A DNA stretch of 64,000 nt from contig NZ_CP108464.1 in assembly GCF_036226405.1 (NCBI RefSeq), positions 8,804,001-8,868,000 of the forward strand. The letters run 5' to 3'. Source of the stretch: Streptomyces sp. NBC_01260 (GTDB taxonomy: Bacteria > Actinomycetota > Actinomycetes > Streptomycetales > Streptomycetaceae). This document shows positions 19,118 to 62,881 of the stretch, piece after piece; position 1 is the stretch's first letter, and every line of letters starts with the position of its first letter. A program made the translations under genes and the position numbers. The notes under the pieces are model-generated. The model saw nothing but the letters and a program-made list of their open reading frames with translations. It made no database searches and was not told the origin of the DNA.

Positions 19118-19197
19118 CCCCGGGCCCCTGGCCCTGCACCACTGACTTCGGCGCTGCCCTCCCGGCAGCGCGACCACCTGATGAGGAGTGTGCGAAC

Positions 19198-35437: not shown

Positions 35438-35696
35438 TCCTCTGTCGGCCTGCCCTGCCCGCCGTCGTCCCGGTCAGCATCGGTCCGAACCAGAAGGAAC
35501 GGAACAGGCACGGACAGGAACCGGCCAGCCGCCGGGCGATCAGGCTTGTGTCCCGGCGCAGACGGCGCAGAGTCGGCCCCGACGGCCGGACATGCCGGAC
35601 GTGCTGGACGTCAACACGCCTGCTCCGGGAGGGATGACGGGCTCGCCCGTCTGCGGATCCATACTGTGTCAACATCAACTCCTGCCCGTAGAGGAT
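35438..35696. promoter_or_regulatory. Divergent intergenic region
   Basis: This stretch separates the minus-strand methyltransferase-like gene from the plus-strand PKS gene and should contain both promoters. Three candidate PKS starts lie in or at the edge of it: ATG 35592, ATG 35634 after GGGAGG, and GTG 35697 after AGAGGA. None has ideal spacing. Confidence 0.35.
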
Positions 35697-44051: not shown

Positions 44052-44666
44052 TCAGCCCGGTGGCAGGCTGGGTACGTCGGCGGGGAAGATCACGGGACGG
44101 GTGGGGCGGCGCTGCCGGCAGGCGGCTGTCAGCGCATCGGCCACCAGCTCGGTCCGCAGGTGATCAGCGGTTGCCCAGCCGACCACGCGCCGGGAGGCGA
44201 TGTCGATGACCGTGGCCAGATAGAGCCAGCCCTCCTCGGTCGGGACATACGTGATGTCGCCGCACCAGCGGGCATCGAGCCCGGTGCGGCCGGGCTGGAA
44301 GTCCCGGACGATGAGGTCGGGTCGGAGGGCAGCCCCGGGATCGGGAGTCGTGGTCACGTGCCGTCGGCGGCGGTGCCGGCCCTGCAGCCCAGCAGCCCGC
44401 ATCAGCCGCGCGACACGACGGCGGCCGCACCCGGCGCCTTCGCGCTTGAGCTCGGCGTGCACGCGCGGCGCCCCGTAGGTCCCGCGCGATTTCATATGAA
44501 CCTCGGTGATCTGCACGGTCAGCTCGGCATCCCGCACCGCACGGAGTCCGGGCGGACCGGAGCGACGGGCATAGTAGGCGGTGCGGGAGACCTTCATCAG
44601 CTCACACGCCCGTTTGACGCTGTGACCTTCCTGCTTCTCCGCCTCGATGAACGGGTGCACCGTCAC
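44052..44666 (-). pseudogene. IS3 transposase OrfB, truncated
   Basis: 204 codons from GTG 44666, overlapping the orfA stop. It starts with HPFIEAEKQEGHSVKRACEL and contains SRTAYYARRSG, MKSRGTYGAPRVHAEL and the first catalytic aspartate in WCGDITYVPT. After ACRQRRPTRPVIF the sequence leaves the family where the second DDE block (SDxGxQY) should follow, so the second aspartate and the glutamate are lost. OrfB of this group is normally near 280-300 residues. Confidence 0.85.
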
Positions 44667-44986
44667 CGGGTCTCCTTCGTGAAGAAAGCTGTGGCCCGCT
44701 TGAGGACATCGACATCCTCACGCAGACGGCGGTTCTCCCGCCGCAACGCGGCCAACTCCTCACGCTCGCCACTGGTCAGCCCGTTGCGTTCGCCCGCGTC
44801 GACCTCTGCCTGCCTTACCCAGTCCCGCACCGCGGTATCGGCCACCTCGAAGTCCTTGGCGACGTGCCCGACCGAGCGTTCGCCTCGTCGGCACAGCCCG
44901 ACGATCTCGGCCTTGAACTCCGGCGTGAACGAACGGCGAGGGCGGCGAGGCTTCTTCTTCCCCATGCTCTCCATGATGGACATCCT
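44663..44986 (-). CDS. IS3 transposase OrfA
   Basis: About 100 residues; the frame opens at 45022, but internal ATGs at 44980 and 44965 are more likely starts. It has the basic helix-turn-helix of IS3 OrfA proteins (RRSFTPEFKAEIVGLC, then GHVAKDFEVADTAVRDWV) and a C-terminal leucine-zipper-like coil (ELAALRRENRRLREDV, LKRATAFF). It would bind element ends and normally form an OrfAB fusion by frameshifting. With orfB truncated, this protein can at most act as a DNA-binding repressor. Confidence 0.8.
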   Translation of the reverse strand, partial: RMSIMESMGKKKPRRPRRSFTPEFKAEIVGLCRRGERSVGHVAKDFEVADTAVRDWVRQAEVDAGERNGLTSGEREELAALRRENRRLREDVDVLKRATAFFTKETR

Positions 44987-45266
44987 CCCGGGGCAGAACC
45001 CCAGATCTCGAATGTCCGTCAAAGCGGATCAAACCCACTTCGGCGCTACCCCCGGAAGGCGTGCCCGGGGGCGGGCCCCGGGTGCTGCGGCGCCCCCGTC
45101 GGGGCGATGCCCGTCCACCGGGACGCGTGCTGCCCTGCCCGGTGCAACTCTTCGTGCCGCAATGGTGTTCACACCCTCGACGCATGCGTATGCCGAGCGG
45201 GCGTCACGGCCGTCACTCCGGCGGCGTGGCCCGTTCATCATGAACATGAAGTAGAGGAGTTCGACC

Positions 45267-45818
45267 ATGGTGACCCTCAGCACTGTCGGCGACGCCGCCA
45301 CGGTGGTGATGCACACCACGCCCCTGGGCCCGCTCGCGCTCGCTGCGACGGACGATGCGCTCGTCCTGTGCTGCTACGGCACGGCCGCGACCGCCGCCCA
45401 GCGCCTGAGCCGGGGCGGCCTGCACCCGGTGGGACCACAGGACGAGCGTGCCCCGGGACTCGAGGTGCTGGAAGAGGCCCGCGAGCAGATCGACGCGTAT
45501 CTGAACGGGACGCGCCGCGAGTTCACCGTGCCGGTGGACATGCGGCTGGCCACCCCGTTCAGCCGGGACACCAACCTCATGCTGGCCGAGTTCGTGCCGT
45601 ACGGGCGGACCGCGACGTACGCGCAGCTCGCCGGGGCGCTCGACCGGCCCGGCGCGGCCCGTGCCGTCGGCACGGCGCTCGGCGCGAACCCGCTGTGTGT
45701 GGTGCTGCCCTGCCACCGGATCCTCCCCGCCGCGGGCGGTCTCGGCGGATACGCGGGAGGGCCGCAGGCCAAGCGGCACCTGCTCGCCGTCGAGGCGCCG
45801 GCCACGGCGAGCGTCTGA
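45267..45818 (+). CDS. ogt: Methylated-DNA-[protein]-cysteine S-methyltransferase (O6-alkylguanine repair)
   Basis: 183 residues from ATG 45267, 8 bases after GAGGAG. It has an N-terminal ribonuclease-H-like half and the MGMT helix-turn-helix half: VPYGRTATYAQLAG, RAVGTALGANPLCVVLPCHR with acceptor Cys149, and GLGGYAGGPQAKRHLLA. It removes methyl groups from O6-methylguanine in a suicide reaction. It lies just upstream of a second alkylation-repair gene at the left edge of the N-nitroso cluster. This suggests self-protection against a DNA-methylating product. It is distinct from the MGMT-like protein at 59298, which lacks the acceptor cysteine. Confidence 0.95.
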   Translation: MVTLSTVGDAATVVMHTTPLGPLALAATDDALVLCCYGTAATAAQRLSRGGLHPVGPQDERAPGLEVLEEAREQIDAYLNGTRREFTVPVDMRLATPFSRDTNLMLAEFVPYGRTATYAQLAGALDRPGAARAVGTALGANPLCVVLPCHRILPAAGGLGGYAGGPQAKRHLLAVEAPATASV

Positions 45819-45857: not shown

Positions 45858-46667
45858 GTGAACGCGTACGAACCACCGCACATTCCGGGCCTCGAACTGC
45901 CCGGCCCGACCTTCGCCGTACCCGCGCCCCCACCCGTACCCGCGCCCGAGGCGGCGGTGGCGACCGACGGGACCCCGGGGCCCGGCGGACTCGACTGGCG
46001 GGCGCTGGCGGCCGAACTCGACCGGGAGGGAGTGGCGTTGACCCCGCCCCTGCTGTCGCCCGAGCACTGCGCGGCCCTGCGGGATCTCTTCGACGACCCC
46101 GCCGCCTTCCGCAGCACGGTGACCATGGCCCGGCACCGTTTCGGGGAGGGCCTCTACCGCTACTTCTCCTACCCGCTGCCAGCCCTGGTCCAGGAGCTGC
46201 GAGAGCAGCTGTACCCACCTCTCGCGCAGATCGCCAACGACTGGGCGCGGCGTCTGGGACAGCCGCCGTTCGCACCGAGTCTCGACGGGATGCTCGCGCA
46301 GTGCTCGGCCGCCGGACAGCTTCGCCCGACGCCGCTCGTCCTGCGCTACGAGCAGGGCGGGTACAACTGCCTGCACCAGGACGTCTACGGCGACCTGACC
46401 TTCCCGCTCCAGGTGGCGGTCATGCTCGACCGGCCGGACGAGGACTTCACCGGCGGCGAGAGTGTGTTCGTCGAGCAGCGCCCGCGCGCCCAGTCCCGAC
46501 CGGTCGTCAAGCGGCCCGTGCAGGGGCAGGGAATGATCTTCACGGTGAACCACCGCCCGGTGCGCTCAGCACGTGGCTGGAGCCGGGTGGCTCTGCGGCA
46601 CGGTGTGAGCGCTGTGCACAGCGGGCAGCGCCATGTGCTCGGCGTCATCTTCCACGACGCCCGGTAG
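45858..46667 (+). CDS. 2OG-Fe(II) oxygenase, Oxygenase-NA family (alkylated DNA repair)
   Basis: 269 residues starting at GTG 45858. After a proline-rich N-terminus (about 1-45) it is a double-stranded beta-helix dioxygenase. YEQGGYNCLHQDVYGDLTF holds the H173-x-D175 iron pair, GGESVFVEQRPRAQSR is highly typical of the Oxygenase-NA (PF09859) family, and SARGWSRVALRHGVS with RHVLGVIFHD supplies the distal histidine and 2-oxoglutarate arginine. Members are annotated as oxidatively removing methyl damage from nucleic acid. It lies 39 bases after the ogt gene on the same strand, forming a repair operon ended by the hairpin at 46681-46717. Confidence 0.85.
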   Translation: MNAYEPPHIPGLELPGPTFAVPAPPPVPAPEAAVATDGTPGPGGLDWRALAAELDREGVALTPPLLSPEHCAALRDLFDDPAAFRSTVTMARHRFGEGLYRYFSYPLPALVQELREQLYPPLAQIANDWARRLGQPPFAPSLDGMLAQCSAAGQLRPTPLVLRYEQGGYNCLHQDVYGDLTFPLQVAVMLDRPDEDFTGGESVFVEQRPRAQSRPVVKRPVQGQGMIFTVNHRPVRSARGWSRVALRHGVSAVHSGQRHVLGVIFHDAR

Positions 46668-46717: not shown

Positions 46718-47021
46718 GCCGTCCCTGCCCCGGCCTCACACCCCCCGGTCCGCCGCACGCGCGGAAGCGGCGCAATCAACCGGTCCGGGGCCCCGGTTTC
46801 TGCCGCCTCCTTCCAGCGGACGGGCGGCGCCGGAGTTCTCCCAGGCCGGAGTCCTGGAGCGAGAGCCCCCACCCGGCAGAACCGCCACGGGGACTGGAGC
46901 GCTGCTGAAGTTCCGCAACACCGGGCTTCCATACGGTCGCCATGCGACGGAGCACTGACCTCGACGGCCCGTCGCACACCAAGGCCGGTCCGGCGATTCG
47001 ATGTAAGGAGCGGTGGCGAAC
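46718..47021. promoter_or_regulatory. Leader of the N-nitroso biosynthetic operon
   Basis: About 300 bases without a gene, preceding the methyltransferase. It must contain the promoter of the long operon that follows. AAGGAG at 47005-47010 is the ribosome site for ATG 47022. I see no clear SARP-type direct repeats. Confidence 0.4.
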
Positions 47022-48104
47022 ATGCAGCAGGTCCAGGGCGCACAGGTCACGACAGCAGGGCATGATCCGGGACCCGACGGCCCGAACCTGTCGCTCGACA
47101 ACGCACAGCACCGTCTGATCACGGCGTCGCTGAAGTCGCTGGCACAGGAGATGAACAACATCGCGGAGCAGGCGTCCGCACTGCTCACGGCGCCGGTGGG
47201 CGGCGCCACCGACTCCGACGTCTTCGCGCGGATCGCGCGCGGCGCCGTCCCCCGATGGCATTTCGCGATGCTGAACGACACCGAGCGCAACGACGCCCTC
47301 GTCGGAGCCCTGACGCGCGGCATACCGGCCGGGGCGACGGTCCTGGACATCGGCTCGGGGAGCGGACTGCTCGCCATGGCCGCCGCACGGGCCGGCGCGG
47401 CGCGGGTGATCACCTGTGAGATGAACCCGCTGCTCGCGGAGGTCGCCCGCCAGACGGTCGACACGCACGGGTTCAGCGAGATCATCACCGTGATCGGCAA
47501 GCCGTCCAACCTGCTGGAGATCGGCCGCGACCTCGACGCCCCGGTGGACGTGCTCGTCTCGGAGATCGTCGACTGCGGGCTCATCGGGGAGGGCCTCCTG
47601 CCGTCGATCAGACATGCACGCCGGCACCTGCTCAAGCCCGGCGGCATCATGCTCCCCTCGGTAGCCCGGGTGCAGGGCCGGCTCGTCAGCAGCGAGGACA
47701 TCCTGCGGCTCAACCAGGTCACGACGGCGTCCGGGTTCGACGTCTCGCTCATGAACACGCTGTCCACCCGCAGCCACTTCCCGGTGCGGCTCAGCACCTG
47801 GCCCCACCGCTATCTGTCCGACACCGTCCGGGTCATGGAGTTCGACCTCGCCGAGGACGCCCTGGAGCCGGGCGAGCGTCCGGTCGACTTCGTCGCGAGC
47901 GCCGACGGGGAGGCGCACGCCCTGGCCGTCTGGTTCGAACTGGACATGGGGCACGGAACCACGCTGTGCAACTCTCCGGAGAACACCGGTTCGCACTGGA
48001 TGCAGGGGTGGGTCCCGCTGGAGAAGCCCGTGCCGGTGAAGGCGGGTGAGCCGGTCTCCCTGCGGATCCGCTGGAGCGACTTCACCCTCAACGTCCACGC
48101 CTGA
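47022..48104 (+). CDS. sznE: PRMT-like arginine N-methyltransferase (SznE/StzE-like)
   Basis: 360 residues from ATG 47022 (11 bases after AAGGAG; GTG 47013 is possible but too close). It is a class I methyltransferase of the protein-arginine-methyltransferase type: SAM motif VLDIGSGSGLLAMAAARAG, the double-glutamate loop SEIVDCGLIGEG, and a C-terminal beta-barrel with the THW-like SHWMQGWVPLEKP. Bacterial PRMTs are uncommon. In streptozotocin biosynthesis SznE methylates free L-arginine to N-omega-methyl-L-arginine, the substrate of SznF. Its position 61 bases upstream of an SznF orthologue makes that role the best inference here. Confidence 0.9.
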   Translation: MQQVQGAQVTTAGHDPGPDGPNLSLDNAQHRLITASLKSLAQEMNNIAEQASALLTAPVGGATDSDVFARIARGAVPRWHFAMLNDTERNDALVGALTRGIPAGATVLDIGSGSGLLAMAAARAGAARVITCEMNPLLAEVARQTVDTHGFSEIITVIGKPSNLLEIGRDLDAPVDVLVSEIVDCGLIGEGLLPSIRHARRHLLKPGGIMLPSVARVQGRLVSSEDILRLNQVTTASGFDVSLMNTLSTRSHFPVRLSTWPHRYLSDTVRVMEFDLAEDALEPGERPVDFVASADGEAHALAVWFELDMGHGTTLCNSPENTGSHWMQGWVPLEKPVPVKAGEPVSLRIRWSDFTLNVHA

Positions 48105-48165: not shown

Positions 48166-49581
48166 ATGAGCCATGTACCGCAGCACGTCCCGTTCGAACT
48201 CAGTGGCGCCGAACTGCGCGATGCCATCGTGCAGTTCGCCACGAACCCGATCTACCTGGACAACCTGTCCTGGCAGAACGAGGACAACCCCTACCGCCGC
48301 CAGCTGCGGCCACAGGTGCTCCCGCACCTCGACTTCGACAAGGTCCCGGGCAGGGAGAACATCCTCGACTACACGAGCCTGGCCGTGCAGCGTCTGCTCA
48401 CCACCGTCTACGAGGCGGACCTGGTGTTCTTCCCCCAGTCCGGACTGGAGGGCAAGGAGGAGGACTTCCGGGCGTTCTACAGCCCGGCGAACCGGGCGCT
48501 CGGCGAGCGGATACGCCCGGCCCTGGAGCGGTACGCCTTCGGCTTCCTCGACGACGAGGTGGAGACCTCGGGCACGTGGACCAGGGCGAGCCTCGACAGC
48601 TACCTCGACTCGCTCGACATGGGCGGCGGCCAGGAGCCGTCACCGGTGGAGGCGGCCGTCACCGGTTCCACCGACCCCGTGCGCGCCGCCCGGATGTGGC
48701 TGGTGCAGTTTGCCCCCGACTTCCTCTCCGAGGCGTCACCCATGATGCGCAACCTCCTCGGCTACTACGGACCCACCCAGTCGGAGTGGTTCAAGGTCGT
48801 CATCGACGAGTACGGCTACGGCGTGCACGACACCAAGCACAGCACCCTGTTCGAGCGGACGCTGGAGTCCGTCGGCCTGCGGACCGACCTCCACCGGTAC
48901 TGGCAGTACTACCTCAACAGCAGCCTGCTGCTGAACAACTACTTCCACTACCTGGGCAAGAACCACGAACTGTTCTTCCGGTACGTGGGCGCGCTGTTCT
49001 ACACGGAGAGTTCCCTGGTCGACTTCTGCCGACGCGCCGACCGGCTGCTCCACGGTGTCTTCGGCGAGTCCGTCGACACCAAGTACTTCACCGAGCACAT
49101 CCACATCGACCAGCACCACGGCCGAATGGCCCGCGAGAAGATCATCGCACCGCTGATCGACGCCCACGGCGAGGGCATCATCCCCGAGATCGTCCGGGGC
49201 ATCGAGGAGTACCGGGTGCTCCTGGGCATCGCCGACAAGGACCTGAGCGCGCAGATCGCCTGGATGGACGACCAGCCCGAACTGAAGAAGCTGCACGGTC
49301 CCGTCTACGAGGCGATCCGGGAGGGGCGAGTGGTGGCGCCGGTGGCGCACCTGGTCGAGCCCTTCAATGAACTGTCCAACACCCACTGCCACGAAGGCGA
49401 CGAGCTCTGCCACATCGTGTCGGGCACCATGCGCTTCGAGAGCGGCCTCGACTCCTCGCTGACCCTCGAGGCGGGCGAGGGCGTCGTCATCCGGCGCAAC
49501 CGGCTGCACGGGGCCGACATCCTGTCGGACGAGTGCGTCTACGAGATCCACTCGGTGGGGGACTACCGCAAATGCCTGTAG
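48166..49581 (+). CDS. sznF: N-nitrosating di-iron/cupin metalloenzyme (SznF/StzF-like)
   Basis: 471 residues from ATG 48166 after CAAGGAG. An N-terminal helical domain (about 1-130) is followed by a haem-oxygenase-like di-iron oxidase (about 140-330) with Glu189, Glu215, His225, Glu281, His311, Asp315 and His318, and a C-terminal cupin (about 385-471) with the three-histidine site His407, His409 and His448. As I recall them, these are the residue numbers of the metal ligands in SznF. SznF hydroxylates N-omega-methyl-arginine at two nitrogens in the di-iron domain. Its cupin iron then rearranges the product to an N-nitrosourea. Conservation of all ten ligands in register indicates true orthology and activity. 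The stop overlaps the next gene. Confidence 0.95.
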   Translation: MSHVPQHVPFELSGAELRDAIVQFATNPIYLDNLSWQNEDNPYRRQLRPQVLPHLDFDKVPGRENILDYTSLAVQRLLTTVYEADLVFFPQSGLEGKEEDFRAFYSPANRALGERIRPALERYAFGFLDDEVETSGTWTRASLDSYLDSLDMGGGQEPSPVEAAVTGSTDPVRAARMWLVQFAPDFLSEASPMMRNLLGYYGPTQSEWFKVVIDEYGYGVHDTKHSTLFERTLESVGLRTDLHRYWQYYLNSSLLLNNYFHYLGKNHELFFRYVGALFYTESSLVDFCRRADRLLHGVFGESVDTKYFTEHIHIDQHHGRMAREKIIAPLIDAHGEGIIPEIVRGIEEYRVLLGIADKDLSAQIAWMDDQPELKKLHGPVYEAIREGRVVAPVAHLVEPFNELSNTHCHEGDELCHIVSGTMRFESGLDSSLTLEAGEGVVIRRNRLHGADILSDECVYEIHSVGDYRKCL

Positions 49582-49934
49582 TGAACTTCGCCGTCACCGG
49601 ACGGGAGAACTGTGTGGTCGTCGCTGGCATCGCCTACGTGTACGCCACGGTCGGCGGGCGCGGCTTCGTGATGAGCGCCCAGTGCCCCCACCGCGGGGGC
49701 CCGCTGCACCTGGCGGGTGTGACGCCGGACGCCTCCCGGCTCATCTGCCCCTGGCACGACCGCAAGACGTCCACGGCGCGGCTGCGCGCCGAGGTCCCCG
49801 CCGTGCGCTCCGGGGCCCGGGTCACGGCCGTCTTCTCCGAGAGCCGGCCGCGCACCGCCCCCCGATGCGCTGTGACGACCCGTGAGCACCGGCCCCTGTC
49901 GTCCGCGCTCGCCCGGCCCGGCCCGGCGGTCTGA
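49572..49934 (+). CDS. Small Rieske [2Fe-2S] protein
   Basis: 120 residues from ATG 49572, which lies within the last codons of the sznF-like gene, so the two are translationally coupled. The Rieske motif is CPHRGGPL followed 16 residues later by CPWH. The fold looks like a stand-alone Rieske ferredoxin (the strand before the motif reads YVYATVGGRGFVM) with an extra basic, disordered C-terminal tail of about 50 residues. It is a good candidate electron donor for the di-iron oxidase, which needs reducing equivalents. That role is inferred only from coupling. Confidence 0.85.
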   Translation: MPVVNFAVTGRENCVVVAGIAYVYATVGGRGFVMSAQCPHRGGPLHLAGVTPDASRLICPWHDRKTSTARLRAEVPAVRSGARVTAVFSESRPRTAPRCAVTTREHRPLSSALARPGPAV

Positions 49935-50091
49935 CCCGGCCGGTCCGTCCGGTCGCAGCCGCGGGCCGCGGACTGCAACGACCTGGGAGTCGCCGGTGTT
50001 CTACCCATTGCGACGGCTCCGCCGCGGCGCCGGGGACGGCGCCGCGGCGCGCACCCGCCCGAGCACGACGACGAACGAGGAGACACGAACC

Positions 50092-51342
50092 ATGGCGTGG
50101 GACGGTGAGAAGCCGCTTTTGCTCCTGATCGGGAGCAGCGGCCGGCGCAGCAGGGAGTTCATCCTGCGAACGGTGAGCCAGCGCTACGCGCTATGGCTCC
50201 TCCAGCCCGCGGCGGTGACCTGGGAGGACCCGTACGTCGTGGGCGGCACGGCCGTCGACAACACCGACGCCGAGGCTCTCGTCGAGGCGGCCCTCCAAGT
50301 GGCCGCCGCGCACCGAGTGACCGGCGTGTTCTGCTACGACGAGGGGCTCGTCACGCCCGCCGCCCATGTGGCACGGGCGCTGGGACTGCCCGGCAACTCC
50401 CCGGAGGCGGTCGTCGCCTGCCGGGACAAGAACGCCACCCGCATCGCGCTGGAGGCCGCCCGGGTTCCCCAGCCCGCGTCGATCGGCGTCCGCTCCCTGG
50501 ACGAGGCACGCACCGCGGCGAAGAAGATCGGCTTCCCCGTCGTGGTGAAACCGCGCGGCCTGGCCGGCGGGATGGGCGTACGCAGGGCCGACGGTCCCGA
50601 CGACGTGGAGAGCGCCTACGAGGCCGCCTCGGACGCCTCCTACCCCGGCGTGCCCGTCTTCGACGTGCCGGTCCTCGTGGAGGAGTACGCGGACGGCCCG
50701 GAGATCAGCGTCGACGCGGTCTTCTTCGACGGCGAGTGCGTTCCGCTCGCCGTGGCCCGCAAGCAGGTGGGCCTCGCGCCCTTCTTCGAGGAGACGGGCC
50801 ACGAGGTCGACGGGTCCGACCCGCTGCTCACCGACACCGGGCTGCTCGAGGCGTTGCGGGCCGCGCACGCCGCGCTCGGCTTCCACACCGGGGTCAGCCA
50901 CACCGAGTTCCGCATCACCGCCGACGGCCTTCGTCTGATGGAGGTCAACGCCCGCCTCGGCGGCGACATGATCCCCTACCTCGGGGAGCTGGCCACCGGC
51001 GTCGACATCGCGATGGCCGCGGCCGACACCGCTGCCGGCCGGCGCCCGGACACCACGGTGCGCCACCGGAGGGCCGCCGCGATCAGGTTCCTCTACCCGG
51101 AGCACGACGTCGAGATCGACTCCGTGACCGTCCACGAGGACCGCTTCGTATCCGGCGTCCACAGCGCCGACGTGATGGTCGACCCCGGCGCGGTGCTGCG
51201 CCTGCCGCCGCGCGGCTACATCTCCCGCTACGCCCGGGTGATCGCCCTGTCCGACTCCGCCGAGCAGGCGCGCGCCGCCCTGCTGAGCGCCGCGGAGATC
51301 GTCGAAGTCGTCTCCCGCCCGGCGGGGGTCCCCGCACCGTGA
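50092..51342 (+). CDS. ATP-grasp ligase 1
   Basis: 416 residues from ATG 50092, 8 bases after GAGGAG; the frame is open upstream to 49882 but lacks a site there. It contains the ATP-grasp core: RDKNATRIALEAARVPQP, FPVVVKPRGLAGGMGV (lysine and glycine-rich loop), VLVEEYADGPEISVDAVFF and MEVNARLGGDMIPYL (metal-binding Glu and Asn). The family joins a carboxylate, activated as acyl phosphate, to an amine. In this cluster it may activate a carboxyl group of the arginine-derived intermediate or link it to another unit. It overlaps the transporter gene by GTGA. Confidence 0.9.
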   Translation: MAWDGEKPLLLLIGSSGRRSREFILRTVSQRYALWLLQPAAVTWEDPYVVGGTAVDNTDAEALVEAALQVAAAHRVTGVFCYDEGLVTPAAHVARALGLPGNSPEAVVACRDKNATRIALEAARVPQPASIGVRSLDEARTAAKKIGFPVVVKPRGLAGGMGVRRADGPDDVESAYEAASDASYPGVPVFDVPVLVEEYADGPEISVDAVFFDGECVPLAVARKQVGLAPFFEETGHEVDGSDPLLTDTGLLEALRAAHAALGFHTGVSHTEFRITADGLRLMEVNARLGGDMIPYLGELATGVDIAMAAADTAAGRRPDTTVRHRRAAAIRFLYPEHDVEIDSVTVHEDRFVSGVHSADVMVDPGAVLRLPPRGYISRYARVIALSDSAEQARAALLSAAEIVEVVSRPAGVPAP

Positions 51343-52667
51343 CCGACACCGACGAGGGCTCCACGGAGAGCCCGAAGGCCGCCCGGCCGTCCGTCATGCA
51401 GACCCTGCGAGGGATCCCCGGCCCGATCTGGCTGGTCCTGGTCGGCATGCTGATCAACAGGCTCGGCAATTTCCTCCAGATCTACCTGGTGCTCTACCTC
51501 ACCGACAAGGGCTTCAGCACCTCCGCCGCCGCCTTCGCGCTCGGCGCCTACGGTGTGGGCTCGGTCGTCGGCGTCCTGGTGGGCGGCTCGATCTCGGACC
51601 GGATCGGCTACGCGTGGACCATCGTGGGCTCCATGGCGCTGGCCGGCCTGTTCACGCTCAGCCTGGTCCACATCGAGAGCCTGCCGGTGGTGATCGCGGT
51701 CGCCGCGCTGATCGGCGTGCTGGCGCAGGCGTACCGGCCCGCATCCTCGGCACTGCTGGTGGAGGCCACTCCGGAGGAACACCATGTGATGGTGTTCGCC
51801 GTCTACCGCATGGCGTTCAACCTCGGCACCACCGCGGGGCCGCTGCTGGGGGCACTGCTCATCAGCATCTCCTACGACCTGATGTTCTACGTCGACGCGG
51901 TCACGTCGGTGGGCTTCGCACTCTTCGCGCTGATCCTGGTGCGGGCGGACGCGGCCGCCAAATCCGGCCCACGGGAACCGGAGACCGACGGCCGGTCGTA
52001 TCTGGCCGTGCTCCGCGACAGGCGCTATCTGCTGTTCCTGGTGGCGCTGTTCCTCAACGCCGTCGTCTACATCCAGCACACCTCCGCACTCCCGCTCCAG
52101 CTCAGGGCGGACGGCCACGGCGCGACCTTCTACTCGGCCCTGCTGTCGCTGAACGCGGTGATGGTCATCTGCCTGGAGCTGTTGTTCACGAAGTACGTGC
52201 AACACCTTCCGGCGCGGTTCGCCGTCGCGCTGGGCGTCGGTCTGGTGGGTGTCGGCATGAACCTGTACGTGGCCGGCCCCGGCATGGCGATGTTCGTCGT
52301 CGCGACGGTGGTGTGGACGGTCGGCGAGATGATCGGCACCCCGACCGCCTCCGCCTGGCCCGGCCGGGTCGCCCCCGCCCACCTGCGAGGCCGGTACATC
52401 GCGGCCTCCGCCTTCCCCATGCAGATCGGCTACGCGGTCGGCCCGGTGATCGGAATCGCGGCCTGGCAGGCGTCGGCGGCCTCCGTCTGGTGGCTGTGCG
52501 GCGTGCTGACCGCGGTGGCGGTCGTCGCGACCCTCATGGGCATGGTCGAACCGTCGGCCGACGAAGCGGAACGGGCCGCGGACCCCGACCCGACCGACGT
52601 CGTTCCGGGGGAGCCCGCCGGGGCCGCCCCCCGCCCGGTCTCGCCCACCCCCGCCGAGACCACCTGA
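51339..52667 (+). CDS. MFS multidrug-type exporter
   Basis: 442 residues from GTG 51339, overlapping the ligase stop. Twelve membrane helices are visible, the first being IWLVLVGMLINRLGNFLQIYL. The signature loop GGSISDRIGYAWT between helices 2 and 3 and the motif C region RMAFNLGTTAGPLLGALL indicate a drug:H+ antiporter. The C-terminal tail is acidic and proline-rich. As the only MFS gene in the operon it probably exports the N-nitroso product, giving part of the self-resistance. Confidence 0.92.
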   Translation: MTDTDEGSTESPKAARPSVMQTLRGIPGPIWLVLVGMLINRLGNFLQIYLVLYLTDKGFSTSAAAFALGAYGVGSVVGVLVGGSISDRIGYAWTIVGSMALAGLFTLSLVHIESLPVVIAVAALIGVLAQAYRPASSALLVEATPEEHHVMVFAVYRMAFNLGTTAGPLLGALLISISYDLMFYVDAVTSVGFALFALILVRADAAAKSGPREPETDGRSYLAVLRDRRYLLFLVALFLNAVVYIQHTSALPLQLRADGHGATFYSALLSLNAVMVICLELLFTKYVQHLPARFAVALGVGLVGVGMNLYVAGPGMAMFVVATVVWTVGEMIGTPTASAWPGRVAPAHLRGRYIAASAFPMQIGYAVGPVIGIAAWQASAASVWWLCGVLTAVAVVATLMGMVEPSADEAERAADPDPTDVVPGEPAGAAPRPVSPTPAETT

Positions 52668-52748: not shown

Positions 52749-53705
52749 ATGGCCTACGCAGACGGCATCGAGAAGTTCGTGGAGACGGTCGACGGCGCCC
52801 TGCCGCCCGACTTCTACACCTACCCCGTCGAACGACAGCGCGTCCTCTACGACGCCCTGACCGAAGTGCTTCCCATCCCCGTGCCCGAAGGCGTCCGCCA
52901 CCGGGACGCGACGGTCACCCACGGCGGTCGCACAGCCCGCATCCGCGTCTACGAGCCGGCCCGGCGCACGGGCGACGCCGTGCTGTTCTACATACGCGGC
53001 GGCGGCTTCGTCATAGGCTCTCTCCACAGCCACCACAGCCTGGTCGCCGAACTCGCCGACCGCACCGGCCTGGTGGCGATCGCCCTAGACTTCGGCATGG
53101 CCCCGGAGAACGCGCACCCCGGCCCGCTGGAGGACTGCTACGCCGGGCTGTGCGGCACCCTTGCCGACCTGCCCGGCCTCGGGCTCGACGGCATCGACCC
53201 CCACGGCGCGGTGCTCTGCGGGGAGAGCTCCGGCGCCAACATGGCCGTGATCCTGTCGATGATGTCCCGCGACCGCGGCGGCCCCCGGCTGCGCGGCCAG
53301 GCCGTGATCAGCCCCGTCCTCGACTTCACCCGGTGGCGGCACGGTGGCGAGGACGCCCCCCTGCTCTCCGGCGGTGAGATGGAGTTCTACACCGCCTGCT
53401 ACTGCCCGTTGCCCGAACAGGCGGAGCACCCGTACGTCTCGCCGCTGCTCACCGGCAGCTTCCACGATCTGCCGCCCGCCTACGTCGTGGGCTGCGAGAT
53501 GGACTCCCTACGCATCGACGCCGAGAAGTACACCGCCAGGCTGCGGCAGAACGGGACACCGGTGACGTACGTCATGGAGGAGGGCATGGTGCACGCCCCG
53601 GTGCGAGCCCGCCGTATCAGCGAACCCGCCGGAGAGTTCTTCGCGCGCTACTGCGACGCGGTGGCCGAGCTGGCCCGGAAGGCGGCCGACCGTGCCGAAC
53701 GCTGA
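52749..53705 (+). CDS. Alpha/beta hydrolase, HSL-like, with altered oxyanion motif
   Basis: 318 residues from ATG 52749 (AAGTGAGCGA upstream, weak). It belongs to the hormone-sensitive-lipase (alpha/beta hydrolase fold-3) family. The nucleophile is in GESSGAN, the acid in EMDSLRIDAE and the histidine in EGMVHAP. The usual HGGG oxyanion motif reads RGGGF here, with arginine replacing the first histidine. A transferase or hydrolase role in trimming or transferring the nitrosourea acyl group is possible but speculative. The stop overlaps the start of the second ATP-grasp gene. Confidence 0.88.
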   Translation: MAYADGIEKFVETVDGALPPDFYTYPVERQRVLYDALTEVLPIPVPEGVRHRDATVTHGGRTARIRVYEPARRTGDAVLFYIRGGGFVIGSLHSHHSLVAELADRTGLVAIALDFGMAPENAHPGPLEDCYAGLCGTLADLPGLGLDGIDPHGAVLCGESSGANMAVILSMMSRDRGGPRLRGQAVISPVLDFTRWRHGGEDAPLLSGGEMEFYTACYCPLPEQAEHPYVSPLLTGSFHDLPPAYVVGCEMDSLRIDAEKYTARLRQNGTPVTYVMEEGMVHAPVRARRISEPAGEFFARYCDAVAELARKAADRAER

Positions 53706-54966
53706 ACGGGACCCGGCGGCCCCGTGGGCCGGCCCCTGCGTGATCGTCGATCCCTACTCCTCCGGCGCGCTCTTCCCCGAAGCCCTGGCCGAACACTCCG
53801 TGCCCGTGGTCGCGGTGGTCACCGGGCCCCGCGCGCCGGAGGCCTACGCGTCCTCCTACCGGCCGCAGGACTTCGCCGAGATCATCGTCTACGAGGGGGA
53901 CCTGGAACCGGTGGTGCGTCGGTTGCGTGAGCTGGACCCGCGATGTGTGCTGGCCGGCTGCGAGTCCGGGGTGGAACTGGCCGAACGCCTCGCCCCGCGG
54001 GTGCTGCCCGAACGCTGCAACGTGCCGGAACTCGCGGCGGCCCGGCGTGACAAGAGCAGCATGGCGGACGCCGTCGCGGCCGCCGGCCTGCCGGTCATCC
54101 CGCAGCTCTGCACCGCCGACGCCGACGAGGTGGCGGCCTGGCTGGAACGGGAGGGCCTGACGGGGGCGGACCTCGTCGTCAAACCGCCGAAGAGCGCCAG
54201 CACCGACGGCGTGATCAAACTGGCGGGCGGCGCGGACTGGCGCGGAGTGTTCACACGCCAGCTCGGCCGGGTCAACCAGTTCGGGGAGATCGACGACCGG
54301 CTCCTCGTCCAGAAGTTCGTCACCGGCACCGAGTACGTGATCGACACCTTCAGCCACGAAGGCAAGCATGCGCTGGTCGACGTGTGCGCCTACCGCAAGA
54401 TCGACAACGGTCCGCACATGGCCGTCTACGACACCATGCGATGGCTCCCCCCGGACGATCCGGCCCTTTCCGAACTGGCGGAATACGTCTTCGGGGTCCT
54501 GGACGCCGTGGGGATGCGCTTCGGCGCGGCCCATGTCGAGGTGATGGGCACCGCGGAGGGGCCGCTGCTCATCGAGCTCGGAGCCCGCCCCCACGGCGGG
54601 GGCCAGCCGCGCTTCAACCGCAACGCCACCGGCGACAGCCAGATCGACCAGACCGTGCGCTGGCTGACGGGAGGTGAACTGCCGCAGAGCTACGAACTGC
54701 TCGTCCACCAGATGTGCGTCTTCCACATCGCCCCCCGCTCCGGCACTGTCCGCGGCACGTCCGCCCTGGACGGCATCCGGGCTCTGCCCAGTCATCACTT
54801 CTCGATCCAGAACCTGGCCGACGGCGACCGCGTCCCCGCCACCCGGGACCTGGTCGACAGCCTCAATTTCGGATTCGTGATCCTCGCCCACCCCGACGAG
54901 GAGCAGATCCTGCGGGACTACGAAGCGGTTCGAGCCGGGGAACGCCGACTGTCCATCGAGGAGTAG
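53692..54966 (+). CDS. ATP-grasp ligase 2
   Basis: 424 residues from GTG 53692, overlapping the hydrolase gene by 14 bases. A Rossmann-like N-terminus (VIVDPYSSGALFPEAL) is followed by the ATP-grasp domain with RRDKSSMADAVAAAGLPVIPQ, DLVVKPPKSASTDGV, LLVQKFVTGTEYVIDTF and LIELGARPHGGGQPRF. It resembles L-amino-acid ligases of the BacD/YwfE type. Two different ATP-grasp enzymes in one operon suggest two amide or related couplings in the pathway, or ligation to an amino acid followed by hydrolysis. Confidence 0.9.
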   Translation: MPNAERDPAAPWAGPCVIVDPYSSGALFPEALAEHSVPVVAVVTGPRAPEAYASSYRPQDFAEIIVYEGDLEPVVRRLRELDPRCVLAGCESGVELAERLAPRVLPERCNVPELAAARRDKSSMADAVAAAGLPVIPQLCTADADEVAAWLEREGLTGADLVVKPPKSASTDGVIKLAGGADWRGVFTRQLGRVNQFGEIDDRLLVQKFVTGTEYVIDTFSHEGKHALVDVCAYRKIDNGPHMAVYDTMRWLPPDDPALSELAEYVFGVLDAVGMRFGAAHVEVMGTAEGPLLIELGARPHGGGQPRFNRNATGDSQIDQTVRWLTGGELPQSYELLVHQMCVFHIAPRSGTVRGTSALDGIRALPSHHFSIQNLADGDRVPATRDLVDSLNFGFVILAHPDEEQILRDYEAVRAGERRLSIEE

Positions 54967-55747: not shown

Positions 55748-57928
55748 TCACACCCTCCGCAGCCGCTGCTCCACGTCCTCCTGCCACGCCAGCCTGCGCG
55801 CATAGCTCAACAGTGGGGCGGGCAGGGAGAACCGGCCCGGCGCGTACTCCCGCAGCAGACTCGCCCCGACCAGGCGGCGCAGCGCGCGTGACGCCTCCAG
55901 CGGGGTCGTCCCCGCCAGGTCCGCCACGGTGTACACGCTGACGAGCCGCCCCCCGGTACGGGCGAACAACCGGAAGCAGTCGCGCACGGGTTCCGGCAGG
56001 GACAAGTAGGAGAGTTCGAACGCCGCGTGGACCGCGGCGAACAGGTCGTCGGCCTCGACCGGCAGGTCCCGGTGCGCCGCGGCCTCCTTGAACTCCACGC
56101 ACAGCTGGGTCAGCGCCACCCCGGGACGCTCCCCGAGGCGTGCCGCGAGAAGGCGGACCGCCAACGGCAGGCCGCCGCACAAGCGGTTCAGCGCCATCGC
56201 GGCGAGCGGCTCGGCTCCCACCCGCCCTTTTCCCAGAAGCCGGGCCAGCAGCGTGAGGGCCTCGTCCTCGCCGAGCACGTCGAGGTCGAGGCGCGGCACA
56301 CCGCCCTGGGCCACCAGTCCCGGCAGGCTGCCGCGGCTCGTCACAAGGACCGCGCATCCCGCCGTCCCCGGCACGAGCGGACGGACCTGACTCTCCTCGC
56401 ACGCGTTGTCCAGCATGATCAGCACCCGCCTGCCCGACAGGAGGGTGCGGTACAGGTTCGCGGCCTCGTCGAGGGCGTCAGGGATCTCCGCGGCAGAAAC
56501 TCCCAACGCGCGGAGGAACGAGGCGAGGACCTCCCTGGGGTGCAGGGGCCGCCGGTCGGCGTAACCGTACAGATCGGCGTACAGCTGTCCGTCCGGAAAG
56601 CGTTCGCGCACCCGGTGTGCCCAGCGCACGGCCAGGGAGGTCTTGCCCACGCCGGGGAAGCCGGTGAGCAGTGCGGCCGGGACCTGGCCGCTGTGCTCAC
56701 CGGTGCTGAGCAGCAGCCGGTCCAGCCGTTTCAGCTCGGTGCCGCGGCCGACGAAGACCGTACTCGCCGCCGGAATCTGGAACGGCCGCAGCCTGGGCGC
56801 CGCCACGGCCGGTCCCCGGGGGGGCGGAGCCGTGCCGGCCGCGGACTGCTCGGGCACCGGTCCCGTCCGAGGCCAGGGGAGCTCATGGTGCAGAATCCGC
56901 AGTTGGGCGCGCCGCAGCTCGTCGCCCGGCTGGACCCCCAGCTCCCGGTCGAGGCCCCGGGCCACCTCAGAGAAGATCCCTAACGCCTCCCGCTGCTCCC
57001 CGCAGCTCGCCAGCGCCAGCATCAGCCGCGCCTGCAGACCCTCGTGCAGCGGCTCCTCCTCGGTGGCGCCGCGCAGCGCCCGCAGCACCTGCTCGGGCCG
57101 CCGCAGTTGCAGGGACAGATCCGCGTACAGCAGCAGACTCTCCACCCGCTGCCGGGCGGCCGCGGTGGCGGCGGGGTGGTGATGCGGCAGCAGCGATTCA
57201 CCCGCCAGCAGCGGTCCGCGCCAGCAGCTGTAGGCACGTCTGGCCAGCTCGTGGGCCGCTTCGGCGTCCCCGGCCCTGTGCGCCTGCCGCACCCGCGCCG
57301 ACAGATCCTGGAACCGGGTCAGGTCGACCTGGTCGCGCTCCAGTGCCAGGGCGTACCCGGTGTGCGTACGAGCCAGGAAGGAAACCGCCGGTGCGCCTTC
57401 CTCGCAGCCGGGAGCGAGCAGCACCCGGCGTGCCTGGCTGACGTAGGTGTGGACCAGACTCTGGTACGACCGGGGTGGGTTCTCCGGCCACAGGGCGTGA
57501 GTGATCTCCCCCAGGCCGGCCGGCTCCGGGTGCTGCAGGGCCAGCAGGGAGAGCAGACTTCGTACTTTGGCCGCGTGGACGTGCACCTCGACACCGCGGT
57601 GCCGGACGGACAGCGGCCCGAGGATGCCGATGTGGAGTCGCTCGGAGCCCTGGCGTGCGGCGTCGCGCACGGGCGGGGACAACTGCCGCGCCGTGTTCGC
57701 GTCGAGGCCTAGCACATCCGCCAGCAGCCGTACGGTCCGCGTCTGCGGGCGGTTCACCCGGCCGTGTTCGATGTCCCGGAGGACCCGCACGCTCACTCCC
57801 GCACGTTCCGCCAGCTCGCGTTGCGTCAGTCCCGAGCGATAGCGGAACGAGCGAAGCCGCTCACCGAACGACCAGGCGCCCGCTAAGTCGTCGTCCGCGG
57901 CATACCTGCTGCTTACGCGGTTCTCCAT
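55748..57928 (-). CDS. SARP-type regulator with N-terminal XRE helix-turn-helix and NB-ARC domain
   Basis: 726 residues from ATG 57928 after AGGGGA. The N-terminal XRE domain (about 18-78; RSGLTQRELAERAGVSVRVL) is unusual for the family. It is followed by a SARP winged helix (about 95-190) and a bacterial transcriptional activation domain (about 195-345). An NB-ARC ATPase comes next (about 375-640; Walker A GFPGVGKTSLA, Walker B RVLIMLDNA), then a helical C-terminus. Such large SARPs activate biosynthetic operons when ATP-bound. Its placement facing the end of the sznE-F operon makes it the probable pathway-specific activator. Confidence 0.92.
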   Translation of the reverse strand: MENRVSSRYAADDDLAGAWSFGERLRSFRYRSGLTQRELAERAGVSVRVLRDIEHGRVNRPQTRTVRLLADVLGLDANTARQLSPPVRDAARQGSERLHIGILGPLSVRHRGVEVHVHAAKVRSLLSLLALQHPEPAGLGEITHALWPENPPRSYQSLVHTYVSQARRVLLAPGCEEGAPAVSFLARTHTGYALALERDQVDLTRFQDLSARVRQAHRAGDAEAAHELARRAYSCWRGPLLAGESLLPHHHPAATAAARQRVESLLLYADLSLQLRRPEQVLRALRGATEEEPLHEGLQARLMLALASCGEQREALGIFSEVARGLDRELGVQPGDELRRAQLRILHHELPWPRTGPVPEQSAAGTAPPPRGPAVAAPRLRPFQIPAASTVFVGRGTELKRLDRLLLSTGEHSGQVPAALLTGFPGVGKTSLAVRWAHRVRERFPDGQLYADLYGYADRRPLHPREVLASFLRALGVSAAEIPDALDEAANLYRTLLSGRRVLIMLDNACEESQVRPLVPGTAGCAVLVTSRGSLPGLVAQGGVPRLDLDVLGEDEALTLLARLLGKGRVGAEPLAAMALNRLCGGLPLAVRLLAARLGERPGVALTQLCVEFKEAAAHRDLPVEADDLFAAVHAAFELSYLSLPEPVRDCFRLFARTGGRLVSVYTVADLAGTTPLEASRALRRLVGASLLREYAPGRFSLPAPLLSYARRLAWQEDVEQRLRRV

Positions 57929-58674
57929 GATGTCCCCTGGTGGCAGAGTTGCAGCGCGGTTGCCTCATCGGTGGCTGCGAGCGGAAGATGCGCGGCAGGG
58001 CCTGCCGAACGCGCGAGAGCCGTCGGGGCAGGGCGACCGGGGCCGTCCAGAGCGTCGCGGGTAGCCGTGGGCGGGTGCGACAGAACAGGGCGGGGGAGAA
58101 CAATTCCTGGAGGAGCGTTTCGCCAATGCCCTGAACGGAACGGTCGACACCGCGCCTCCTCGAGGCCACGCAAGATCCCGAATAAATGGACGCATGGGGA
58201 GTGTGGTTCGGCTCCTCGGTCCGGGCGCAACTTTAGCTTTCCGGTGTGACCACCGGTCAAGAGGGTCGGTGTGTCTGACGCGAACCGGGCCGCACCGCCC
58301 GCTTTTCGGTTTCCGAAACCTGCTGTGCATCAGCCAGATGGCGGGAAACCGCATCTTGCGGCCCGGGGGGAATGCGGCGAATCCCTGGCCCCGGTAGGGA
58401 GATGCTTGGAAAGCGGCCGGATGGCACAGCCCTTCTGAGCACCGGTAAATCCAAAAAGGCGTTTCGCAACGCGGTGCTGTCCCACTGTTCCGACGCCGCC
58501 CGCTCCGCCGGCCGGGAAACGCGCCCGGCGCCCGCTATGCCAGAGGTCGACCACGGGCACGCCGCCCCCGGCCCGTGCGCGGTCCGCGCCCCGAAGCGTC
58601 CCCAAGGCGTACGGGACCCATGAGAAGGTTCCCGGGTTGCAACGTTCCTGCCCGGCCCGGTGTTCACGAAGACG
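57929..58674. promoter_or_regulatory. Divergent control region between SARP and ECF sigma genes
   Basis: About 745 bases with no credible gene on either strand. It must hold the divergent promoters. A 13-bp palindrome GGTTTC-C-GAAACC lies at 58308-58320 and may be a regulator site. No clear ECF -35/-10 pair could be assigned by eye. Confidence 0.45.
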
Positions 58675-59301
58675 ATGGACGAGATAGCTCTCCCGCTGAC
58701 GGAACTGCTCGCGGCCGACCTGGACGACGGGTTCACCGAACTCGTGCGCACCCAGGCCGGTGCCGTGCGCTCCGTCCTGCTCCGGCTCTCAGGGTCCGCG
58801 CGGGACGCCGACGATCTGGGGCAGGAGACGTTCCTGCGCGCGTACTCGGCTCTGCGCGAGTACTCCGCCGAGCGCCGCAGACAACTCCAGCCGCGTGCCT
58901 GGCTGCTCACCATCGCGGCGAACGTGTGGCGCAACCACATCCGCACCCTGTGCCGCCGGCCCGGCATCGCCGACTCGGTGGAGGTGTCGGCCGTCGAGCT
59001 TCTGGACGACTCCCGGGGGCCGGAGCAGCTCGCGATCGACGGGGCGCGCCGGGCCCGGCTGGTGACGGCGCTGTCCGGGCTGCCCGATCACCACCGGTTA
59101 CCCGTCGTCCTGCGGTACATCGGTGAGCTGAGCTATCAGGAGATGGCCACCGTCCTGGACTGTCCGGCCAGCACGGTGAGGGCCCAGGTCTCACGCGGAC
59201 TCGCCGCTCTGCGGACGCAGTCCGTCCTGGCTGTGGACCGGTCCGGGCACGGATCGGCCCCGGGACCGACGGGCGAGAATCGGAAGGAGACGACGGGATG
59301 A
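58675..59301 (+). CDS. ECF-type RNA polymerase sigma factor
   Basis: 208 residues from ATG 58675 (GTG 58660 possible). Sigma region 2 contains SGSARDADDLGQETFLRAYSAL, and region 4 contains LSGLPDHHRLPVVLRYIGEL followed by SYQEMATVLDCPASTVRAQV. The stop overlaps the next gene as ATGA, implying equal synthesis of the two proteins, as in sigma/anti-sigma pairs. Here the partner is not a membrane anti-sigma but an Ada-like protein, which suggests control by DNA methylation damage. Confidence 0.92.
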   Translation: MDEIALPLTELLAADLDDGFTELVRTQAGAVRSVLLRLSGSARDADDLGQETFLRAYSALREYSAERRRQLQPRAWLLTIAANVWRNHIRTLCRRPGIADSVEVSAVELLDDSRGPEQLAIDGARRARLVTALSGLPDHHRLPVVLRYIGELSYQEMATVLDCPASTVRAQVSRGLAALRTQSVLAVDRSGHGSAPGPTGENRKETTG

Positions 59302-60074
59302 GACTGCCGGACGAGCTGAACACATTGCACGAAGCCGCGCCCGAGGGATTCGCGGTACGCGTGCTGGACCGCGCCAGCGTCCCTGCACATCGCTACGACT
59401 GCTACGTACGGGCCGACTCTCCGGTGGGCCACCTCTACATCGCCCACGGGCGAGGTGCGGTGACCGGCGCCGCCGCCACGAGCTGGTACGCCGACGGGCG
59501 GGCGTTCGAAGACGCCTACCGGGCCAGGACGCACCGGTCCGTCCTCTCCGGGCTCAAGCCCCCGCCGGGCCTCGCGCGGGCCCTGCGCGGCCGGGACCGG
59601 ACCCTGCGCTACGACTTCGGTCCGCTCGCTGACGAACAGGCCACCGTCCTGCTGGCCACCCGGACCATCCCGTTCGGACAGTTGCGCCCGGCGGCCTGGC
59701 TGGCCTGTGAGGCCGGGCTGCCGGACCTCGCACCCGACGTGGTGCTGGCGGCGGTCCGGGCCAACCCCGTCCCCGTACTGGTACCGGCGCACCGGCTCTG
59801 CCAGGACGACGGGTTGCCGGTGGCCTGCGGGCTGCCCGCCGGGTTCGAGCAGGCGCTGCGCGCCTGGGAAGGCGTGGACGACGAGCGGGTGGATCGTTTC
59901 GTACGGGCGGGCGCGCGATTCCTGGGCAGCGGGACCACCCGGATCTTCTGCTACCCGACGTGTGCGCACGCGCGTCGCATCACCGCCCGCCACGAGGTCC
60001 CGTTCATCTCGGCCAGCGAGGCCGCCGCCGCGGGCTTCCGGGGTTGCCTCAGCTGCCGGCCGACGACTGCCTGA
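59298..60074 (+). CDS. MGMT-like domain (acceptor Cys lost) fused to C-terminal Ada metal-binding domain
   Basis: 258 residues from ATG 59298. Residues 10-200 resemble an MGMT protein (TRTIPFGQLRPAAWLACEAG, then VRANPVPVLVPAHRLCQ), but the acceptor motif PCHR is PAHR: residue 164 is alanine, with a cysteine only at 168. Residues 205-258 form an Ada N-terminal-type domain (RFLGSGTTRIFCYPTCAHAR, then GFRGCLSCRP) with all four zinc cysteines, 218, 222, 250 and 253. In Ada the first of these accepts methyl from phosphotriesters and switches the protein into an activator. The domain order is the reverse of Ada. Coupling to an ECF sigma gene suggests a damage sensor rather than a guanine repair enzyme. 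Confidence 0.88.
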   Translation: MRLPDELNTLHEAAPEGFAVRVLDRASVPAHRYDCYVRADSPVGHLYIAHGRGAVTGAAATSWYADGRAFEDAYRARTHRSVLSGLKPPPGLARALRGRDRTLRYDFGPLADEQATVLLATRTIPFGQLRPAAWLACEAGLPDLAPDVVLAAVRANPVPVLVPAHRLCQDDGLPVACGLPAGFEQALRAWEGVDDERVDRFVRAGARFLGSGTTRIFCYPTCAHARRITARHEVPFISASEAAAAGFRGCLSCRPTTA

Positions 60075-61933: not shown

Positions 61934-62500
61934 TCAGGACGGAATCTGGCGGCGGCGAAGGCGCAGCAGTATCCCGCCCACCGCCAGTGTCGCCACGGCG
62001 CCCGACGCGATACCGATGGCCAATCCGCCACCGAAGCCAGGCCCTTCGTTCGATGCCGCGGTCTCGTCCTGACCCGATACCGTCACTTTCGAGCGCAGGA
62101 CGATCGGGGGGTAGTCGCACACGTAGTCGCGGTCCTTTTCCGTCACGCAGTCGGCGCTCTTGTGTCGAAGCGTGAATGTCACCGGATACGTTCCGGGCTT
62201 CACCGTCTTCTTGATCCGGCCCGCGCCCACCCAGGCTCTCTTGGTGTCACCGAGGGCGGTGTCGTCGGTCAGCGCCGGGCTTGAGACCTCAACTGCCGTC
62301 GGGTGCGGGTTGCCGGGACGTTCCTTGACCGTGAGGTCCACCACCCCGCCAGGCGCCGCGGGGCCACCGACGGAGCCGTACCCCTGCTTGGGGAAGGGGA
62401 GCTGATCGGCGTGGGCCGCTCCTGCCTGCCCGAGCAACACCGAGGGCAAGGCAATCGCGGCAAGTCCGCAGCGGATGGACGAACGTGTGAAGTCGATCAT
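61934..62500 (-). CDS. Membrane-anchored secreted protein of unknown function
   Basis: 188 residues from ATG 62500 with GGGGAAG upstream. A Sec signal peptide (about 1-30; LAAIALPSVLLGQAGAAHA) is followed by a beta-rich extracellular domain (VVDLTVKERPGN, TYPVTFTLRHKSADCV, PIVLRSKVTVSG). A glycine-rich transmembrane helix (GGGLAIGIASGAVATLAVGG) then leads to a basic stop-transfer tail RLRRRQIPS. This is a type I surface protein layout. There is no sortase motif. The gene starts 11 bases after the ISAzo13 remnant and appears intact, despite decayed neighbours. Confidence 0.7.
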   Translation of the reverse strand: MIDFTRSSIRCGLAAIALPSVLLGQAGAAHADQLPFPKQGYGSVGGPAAPGGVVDLTVKERPGNPHPTAVEVSSPALTDDTALGDTKRAWVGAGRIKKTVKPGTYPVTFTLRHKSADCVTEKDRDYVCDYPPIVLRSKVTVSGQDETAASNEGPGFGGGLAIGIASGAVATLAVGGILLRLRRRQIPS

Positions 62501-62510
62501 ATGCGCTTCC

Positions 62511-62881
62511 CCGTGCCAGTAGCTGGTCAGCGGCTGCCCGCGCAGGCTGTGGGTGATCCGGGAGAACAGCCGGTGTTCCATTTTGTTCCATTTTGAAGTA
62601 CCCGGCGGGAAGTGCATGAAGGTGATGCTCAGCCCGCACTCGTCGGCGAAGTCGGCCAGGCCCATCTTGAACAGGCGGGAGTCCGCCGAGTTAGCGCCTC
62701 CAGAATCGGCGGTGACCAGCAAGCGGTCGGTGCTGGGGTAGTCGAGGCGCCCTTGGACCTTCCACCAGCGGCGCAGGGACTCTACCGCGAAGGCAGCGGT
62801 GTTGCGGTCGGTGCCCACGTTCACCCAGCCGCTGTCGCGGCCCAGGTCGTAGATGCCGTACGGAGTGTCCGGGCCGAAGAA
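62511..62881 (-). pseudogene. ISAzo13-family transposase fragment
   Basis: About 120 codons on the minus strand: FFGPDTPYGIYDLGRDSGW, VNVGTDRNTAAFAVESLRRW, LLVTADSGGANSADSRLF and MHFPPGTSKWNKMEHRLFS. These are consecutive conserved blocks of ISAzo13 transposases, including the catalytic DSGG-type aspartate and the WNKxEH glutamate. The N-terminal third and the C-terminus are missing, and it meets an IS3 fragment at about 62885. Confidence 0.75.

Follow-up and report, generated by a model that had tools for sequence, protein, structure and literature searches.

The window analysed herein, a 64,000-nucleotide stretch of Streptomyces sp. NBC_01260 (contig NZ_CP108464.1, positions 8,804,001 to 8,868,000 of the forward strand), quite probably combines a streptozotocin-type (szn) gene cluster, centred on an orthologue of the N-nitrosating enzyme SznF (48166..49581), with a switch in which an extracytoplasmic function (ECF) sigma factor drives repair and late biosynthetic genes from its own promoter motif. 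The enzyme itself is a new SznF-family member in a szn-type cluster, ordinary rather than a new kind. What is new is the regulon, which consists of a sigma gene overlapping the gene for MGMT-Ada (a protein joining the fold of O6-methylguanine-DNA methyltransferase, MGMT, to an Ada methyl-acceptor domain) and of a motif, TGCAAC-N15-GGTGTT, found at three sites in the cluster. Positions are window coordinates, and genes lie on the forward strand unless stated otherwise.

A promoter-like motif at three sites in the cluster

The motif was derived by aligning the sequence upstream of sigma genes. Within the window it occurs exactly three times on the forward strand: at 45143..45169, 97 bp before the MGMT gene; at 49974..50000, 91 bp before the operon of ATP-grasp ligase 1 and the exporter; and at 58638..58664, abutting the sigma gene, where it is conserved in other loci. 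The MGMT copy was visible before the motif search, while the copy at 49974 was not. When one mismatch was allowed, 100 shuffles averaged 0.18 matches and none reached three. Across the whole 9.28-Mb genome, the only exact copies are these three, the reversed control gave 0, and the chance expectation from base composition is about 0.3–0.4 per genome.

The association extends across the genus. Among 392 genomes, 62 exact sites were found in 39; the genomes carrying MGMT-Ada account for 34 sites (in 12 of 13) and those without it for 28 (in 27 of 379; Fisher p 2e-12, uncorrected for relatedness). The reversed pattern yielded 30 sites in 28 of the 392 genomes, none of them among the 13, and since this count is similar, the 28 sites outside MGMT-Ada genomes look like background. 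In addition, the 34 sites comprise 9 that are sigma-proximal on the strand of the sigma gene, 17 others within 20 kb and 8 that are far away or on another contig; the last group exceeds background and therefore represents either further targets or chance.

Comparable placement is seen in individual loci (L003 and L041, with identical match values, being counted once). At the sigma start, 15 of 20 distinct loci with a sigma gene carry an exact site and three carry one with a single mismatch (L045, L047, L050). Of 11 distinct loci with full-length ATP-grasp 1, 10 have a site ahead of that gene, and in L013 and L014 one stands before the hydrolase gene. Furthermore, in the four loci where MGMT is at least 12 kb away from the sigma gene it has a site of its own, exact in the window and with one mismatch in L003, L004 and L009; in all 13 loci in which it directly follows MGMT-Ada (L006, L007, L008, L012, L042–L048, L050, L051) it has none.

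The sigma factor and its MGMT-Ada neighbour

The sigma gene is listed at 58660..59301 and encodes the Pfam domains Sigma70_r2 and r4. The listed start, GTG 58660, falls inside the motif, which makes ATG 58675 the probable true start; the transcript would then possibly be nearly leaderless. The start of MGMT-Ada (59298..60074; PF01035, PF02805) overlaps the sigma stop (ATGA). Its MGMT fold carries PAHR in place of PCHR, so that the acceptor cysteine is an alanine and the site is not that of an active MGMT, while the C-terminal Ada zinc domain is present with its acceptor cysteine; a structure model matches Ada-C and N-Ada. A Pfam scan to E 0.1 found neither an AraC-type DNA-binding domain nor any helix-turn-helix (HTH) family in this protein. 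The Ada cysteine pattern is kept in 58 of the 65 homologues listed and the MGMT cysteine is lost in 26 of them. Two homologues carry PF13490, the anti-sigma zinc finger zf-HC2, N-terminally.

The two genes travel together. MGMT-Ada is present in 13 of the 392 genomes of the genus and adjoins a sigma gene in all 13. SznF at 70% identity or more occurs in seven genomes, and every one of them carries the sigma/MGMT-Ada pair at a distance of no more than 20 kb, compared with 13 carriers of the pair among all 392 (hypergeometric p 6e-12, uncorrected for relatedness); three further genomes hold distant SznF homologues at 26–40% and lack MGMT-Ada. A scan of one genome per species (84,980 species) returned 14 related loci, in which gene absences are not firm because the flanks were limited to 10 kb. 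A sigma relative was found in eight of these, and in seven a relative matches MGMT-Ada along the greater part of its length.

Six MGMT-Ada genomes have no SznF in the fetched stretch. Two of them (L043, L049) place the cassette beside DHQ-synthase-II and aldolase genes, which are known from aminohydroxybenzoate pathways. In both, the motif also stands directly before AMP-binding-enzyme genes. This setting can be likened to a region, described in PMC12224297, that resembles the cremeomycin and diazaquinomycin clusters.

Judged from sequence, the sigma factor likely controls the three motif sites. Because no AraC-type domain was found, MGMT-Ada is proposed as the sensor and the sigma factor as the transcriptional output. 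Under this hypothesis of damage sensing, which draws on domain architecture, MGMT-Ada would respond to methylation of cellular DNA by the product: it would take up a methyl group from the damaged DNA and, once methylated, would free or activate the sigma factor. Repair by MGMT and the oxygenase would then rise along with export and late biosynthesis, and self-protection would therefore track genotoxin output. The full proposal is that an MGMT fold without its cysteine, fused to an Ada acceptor, senses methyl damage and, as anti-sigma or co-activator, partners an ECF sigma factor that drives repair, export and late biosynthesis from a dedicated promoter, the whole forming a portable cassette. 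We regard it as evenly poised between right and wrong.

A plausible but less favoured alternative is that MGMT-Ada is a phosphotriester repair protein only, sharing an operon with the sigma gene and exerting no control. Ada domains repair DNA as well as signal, and 36 of the 65 listed homologues keep the MGMT cysteine, nearly all of them together with the Ada cysteine. A repair-only role sits less easily with the unbroken adjacency to a sigma gene in the 13 genomes, the overlapping start in the window, the loss of the MGMT cysteine alongside retention of the Ada site, and the PF13490 fusions.

Several observations weigh against a sigma-driven, damage-sensing regulon. With 36 listed homologues keeping it, loss of the MGMT cysteine is not required for pairing with a sigma factor, and the Pfam scan found no anti-sigma domain in the MGMT-Ada of the window. 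Six of the 14 related loci have no sigma gene in their fetched flanks, and five (L005, L010, L011, L015, L016) have no MGMT or oxygenase relative there either. The sigma gene lacks a site in L013 and L051, full-length ATP-grasp 1 lacks one in L010, L011 and L014 have motifs with no sigma gene in reach, and an exact motif is missing from one of the 13 genomes with MGMT-Ada. Moreover, the sigma-proximal matches are partly circular, as sequence upstream of sigma genes served to build the motif.

The szn-type cluster and its predicted product

The genes between the motif copies support the assignment of the cluster. A PRMT-like methyltransferase (47013..48104), with a PRMT_C domain in Pfam and protein arginine methyltransferases as its best solved relatives, stands beside the SznF orthologue; as a counterpart of SznE, it is predicted by homology to N-methylate arginine. 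The review PMC11705231 describes methylation of arginine by SznE, two hydroxylations and a rearrangement by SznF, and probable completion by SznH, SznJ and SznK. The order sigma, MGMT-Ada, MGMT, oxygenase, SznE, SznF, Rieske, ATP-grasp 1, exporter, hydrolase, ATP-grasp 2, SARP, seen in L006–L008, may correspond to the letters A to L.

Upstream of the methyltransferase lie an MGMT gene with PCHR intact (45267..45818; PF01035/PF02870), likely serving self-resistance, and a 2-oxoglutarate (2OG)-Fe(II) oxygenase of the Oxygenase-NA family (45858..46667; PF09859, E 6e-77), which would likely act in DNA-damage repair; for the latter, a PDB search gave 0 matches and an NCBIfam scan 0 families. According to PMC12224297, streptozotocin clusters contain a sigma gene and two MGMT genes as well as a 2OG oxygenase, and PMC9040887 credits AlkB- and AGT-type self-resistance to a 2019 Nature paper. 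With MGMT-Ada as the second MGMT gene, the window has counterparts of the set in PMC12224297, as judged by kind of gene.

Downstream of SznF, a small Rieske protein (49572..49934; PF00355), whose gene overlaps the SznF stop, is a possible electron donor. It is followed by ATP-grasp ligase 1 (50092..51342; PF13535 and related, L-amino-acid-ligase-like), an exporter of the major facilitator superfamily (MFS; 51339..52667; PF07690, E 9e-49), an alpha/beta hydrolase (52749..53705; PF07859) and ATP-grasp ligase 2 (53692..54966; NF005543, over cut-off). No nonribosomal peptide synthetase (NRPS) or polyketide synthase (PKS) gene lies between 45143 and 60074. All 14 related loci share a core of four genes (SznE-like, SznF, Rieske and ATP-grasp 2). 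Actinokineospora globicatena has two SznF loci of differing gene content, L014 and L015 (66% and 71% identity), the second with only this four-gene core of the cluster within its flanks.

Following known chemistry, the PRMT-like protein would methylate arginine, the di-iron domain of SznF would hydroxylate two guanidine nitrogens and its cupin would rearrange the product, after which attachment of the N-methyl-N-nitrosourea, probably to an amino sugar, and its trimming may fall to the ligases and the hydrolase. It is plausible, if less favoured, that the product is an N-nitrosourea other than streptozotocin, on a carrier other than glucosamine. The downstream genes differ among relatives: several loci that keep the four-gene core (L005, L011, L012, L015) lack in their flanks a full-length ATP-grasp 1 and relatives of the exporter and hydrolase; in addition, the genes scanned included no recognisable enzyme specific to sugars. 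Streptozotocin itself is favoured by the match, as judged by kind of gene, to the repair and sigma genes of PMC12224297 and to SznE, SznF and the three late enzymes of PMC11705231.

The cluster also encodes a regulator of the Streptomyces antibiotic regulatory protein (SARP) type with an N-terminal HTH (55748..57928, reverse strand; BTAD and NB-ARC in Pfam). Its presence leaves a small chance that the motif is the site of another regulator such as this SARP and not a sigma promoter. That reading is rather improbable, given that the motif stands at the sigma gene in L042, L046 and L048, where the fetched stretch has no match to this SARP, and that two six-base boxes at a fixed 15-base spacing look like an ECF promoter.

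The SznF orthologue

The open reading frame runs from ATG 48166 to the stop at 49581 and encodes 471 residues. The frame stays open upstream as far as GTG 48046; the ATG is supported by a gapless alignment to SznF (6m9r) over residues 1–471. The original prediction had identified this protein as an orthologue of SznF/StzF with all metal ligands at the residue numbers of the streptozotocin enzyme, and the alignment bears it out: identity is 87% over the full length (62 substitutions in 471 residues), is not low outside the ligands, and spans the dimerisation, haem-oxygenase-like di-iron oxygenase (HDO) and cupin domains. E189, E215, H225, E281, H311, D315, H318, H407, H409, H448 and Y459 share their numbering in both proteins, so that the di-iron ligands and three cupin histidines are in register; E189 is counted as a ligand as in the original prediction. 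The other ten are given as essential in PMC11705231.

Every one of the 121 proteins aligned (the query and the best 120 of 580 matches) has all eleven residues. Such conservation discriminates, since three distant homologues from the same genus lack one ligand set or the other: as aligned, L060 and L061 have the cupin histidines but none of the seven di-iron ligands, and in L059 the di-iron set is retained and the cupin set missing. L059 is a 38–40% homologue, and its genome, also of the genus, has no match to MGMT-Ada. Among the matches listed, the closest named relatives are from Streptomyces. By Pfam, Haem_oxygenas_2 scores well over its cut-off and Cupin_2 slightly under (25.8 against 27.2 bits), and an NCBIfam scan returned 0 families. 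The AlphaFold model is weak (predicted local distance difference test, pLDDT, below 50) at 189–206 and 217–222, at or beside two ligands; the helix in this region is mobile in SznF. A second SznF in the genome was considered and rejected, as the candidate at 905510 is a weak match (25%, E 1.1e-6) and tblastn gave none at 1e-3.

The earlier expectation of an active N-nitrosourea-forming enzyme is likewise supported by the identity, the ligands and the SznE-like partner, and from these N-omega-methylarginine is its predicted substrate and an N-nitrosourea its predicted product. That it is inactive or acts on another guanidine is very improbable, given the retained ligands and Y459, the 87% identity and the SznE-like partner. 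A close SznF orthologue from another strain is useful for assays.

Other repair genes and flanking regions

The genome holds eight MGMT-family matches and two Oxygenase-NA genes, of which two and one, respectively, belong to the cluster. With six MGMT-family matches and one Oxygenase-NA thus lying elsewhere, the idea that the cluster carries the sole repair genes of these kinds was rejected. The second Oxygenase-NA lies at about 563–566 kb (L052:8659-11155), where a small sigma-like gene and a pair of MGMT genes accompany it; the motif is absent from the 20 kb around it. Perhaps this locus represents the general adaptive response.

Upstream, 18182–43994 carries large PKS and hybrid PKS-NRPS genes (KS-AT-DH-KR-C-A-TE at 19105–28629; A-KS-AT-DH-KR-TE at 35592–43994), which apparently form a cluster of their own along with fatty-acid hydroxylase and oxidoreductase genes. 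Their inclusion in the szn cluster was rejected, as a two-gene transposase-like pair (44052–45022, reverse strand) intervenes. The pair, which is IS3-like, has no match in the 14 related loci, where the PKS proteins themselves were not searched, and its integrase may be truncated, matching profile positions 6–71 of 102. Downstream of the cluster lies a transposase with a DDE_Tnp_ISAZ013 match (61934–62824, reverse strand).

Significance and comparison with known systems

The gene set of streptozotocin clusters is noted in the literature searched, whose coverage excludes most subscription papers; a sigma/MGMT-Ada circuit in them was not found described there. The regulon proposes how a bacterium times the repair of O6-methylguanine and other methyl lesions with the making of a DNA-methylating drug, and it would give methyltransferase-paired ECF sigma factors a concrete signal, promoter and target list. 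The motif and cassette could also flag unknown genotoxin clusters. If the proposal is true, the occurrence of the cassette beside aminohydroxybenzoate-type genes would make the promoter a genome-mining beacon for methylating and diazo natural products.

At the level of the enzyme, the protein shares length, numbering, ligands, three-domain fold and an SznE-like neighbour with SznF/StzF of the streptozotocin clusters (BGC0002313, BGC0002294), and differs in its 62 substitutions and in coming from a different strain. With the szn-type clusters of PMC10849742 the cluster has an SznF-group protein in common and likewise no NRPS or PKS gene in its span; the promoter regulon and the position of sigma and MGMT-Ada are described here, in a comparison made with that set as a whole.

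At the level of regulation, ECF122 sigma factors adjoin 6-O-methylguanine methyltransferases, with their control given as uncharacterised and the mechanism as unknown in PMC8999054. The likeness to the present pair lies in this neighbour trait alone, and the neighbour in the clade of the window differs in having lost the MGMT cysteine and in bearing an Ada domain. In Escherichia coli, methylation of a cysteine in the N-terminal region activates Ada, which then drives repair genes and its own gene, and Caulobacter has a similar response with a different regulator (PMC10957082). Like E. coli Ada, MGMT-Ada holds a methyl-acceptor domain and an MGMT fold in one protein, and autoregulation and control of repair genes are predicted for it. 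Its domain order is reversed relative to E. coli Ada. It differs further from the Ada adaptive response (E. coli Ada, Caulobacter Cada2) in that no AraC-type DNA-binding domain was found in it; a separate sigma factor would carry out transcription.
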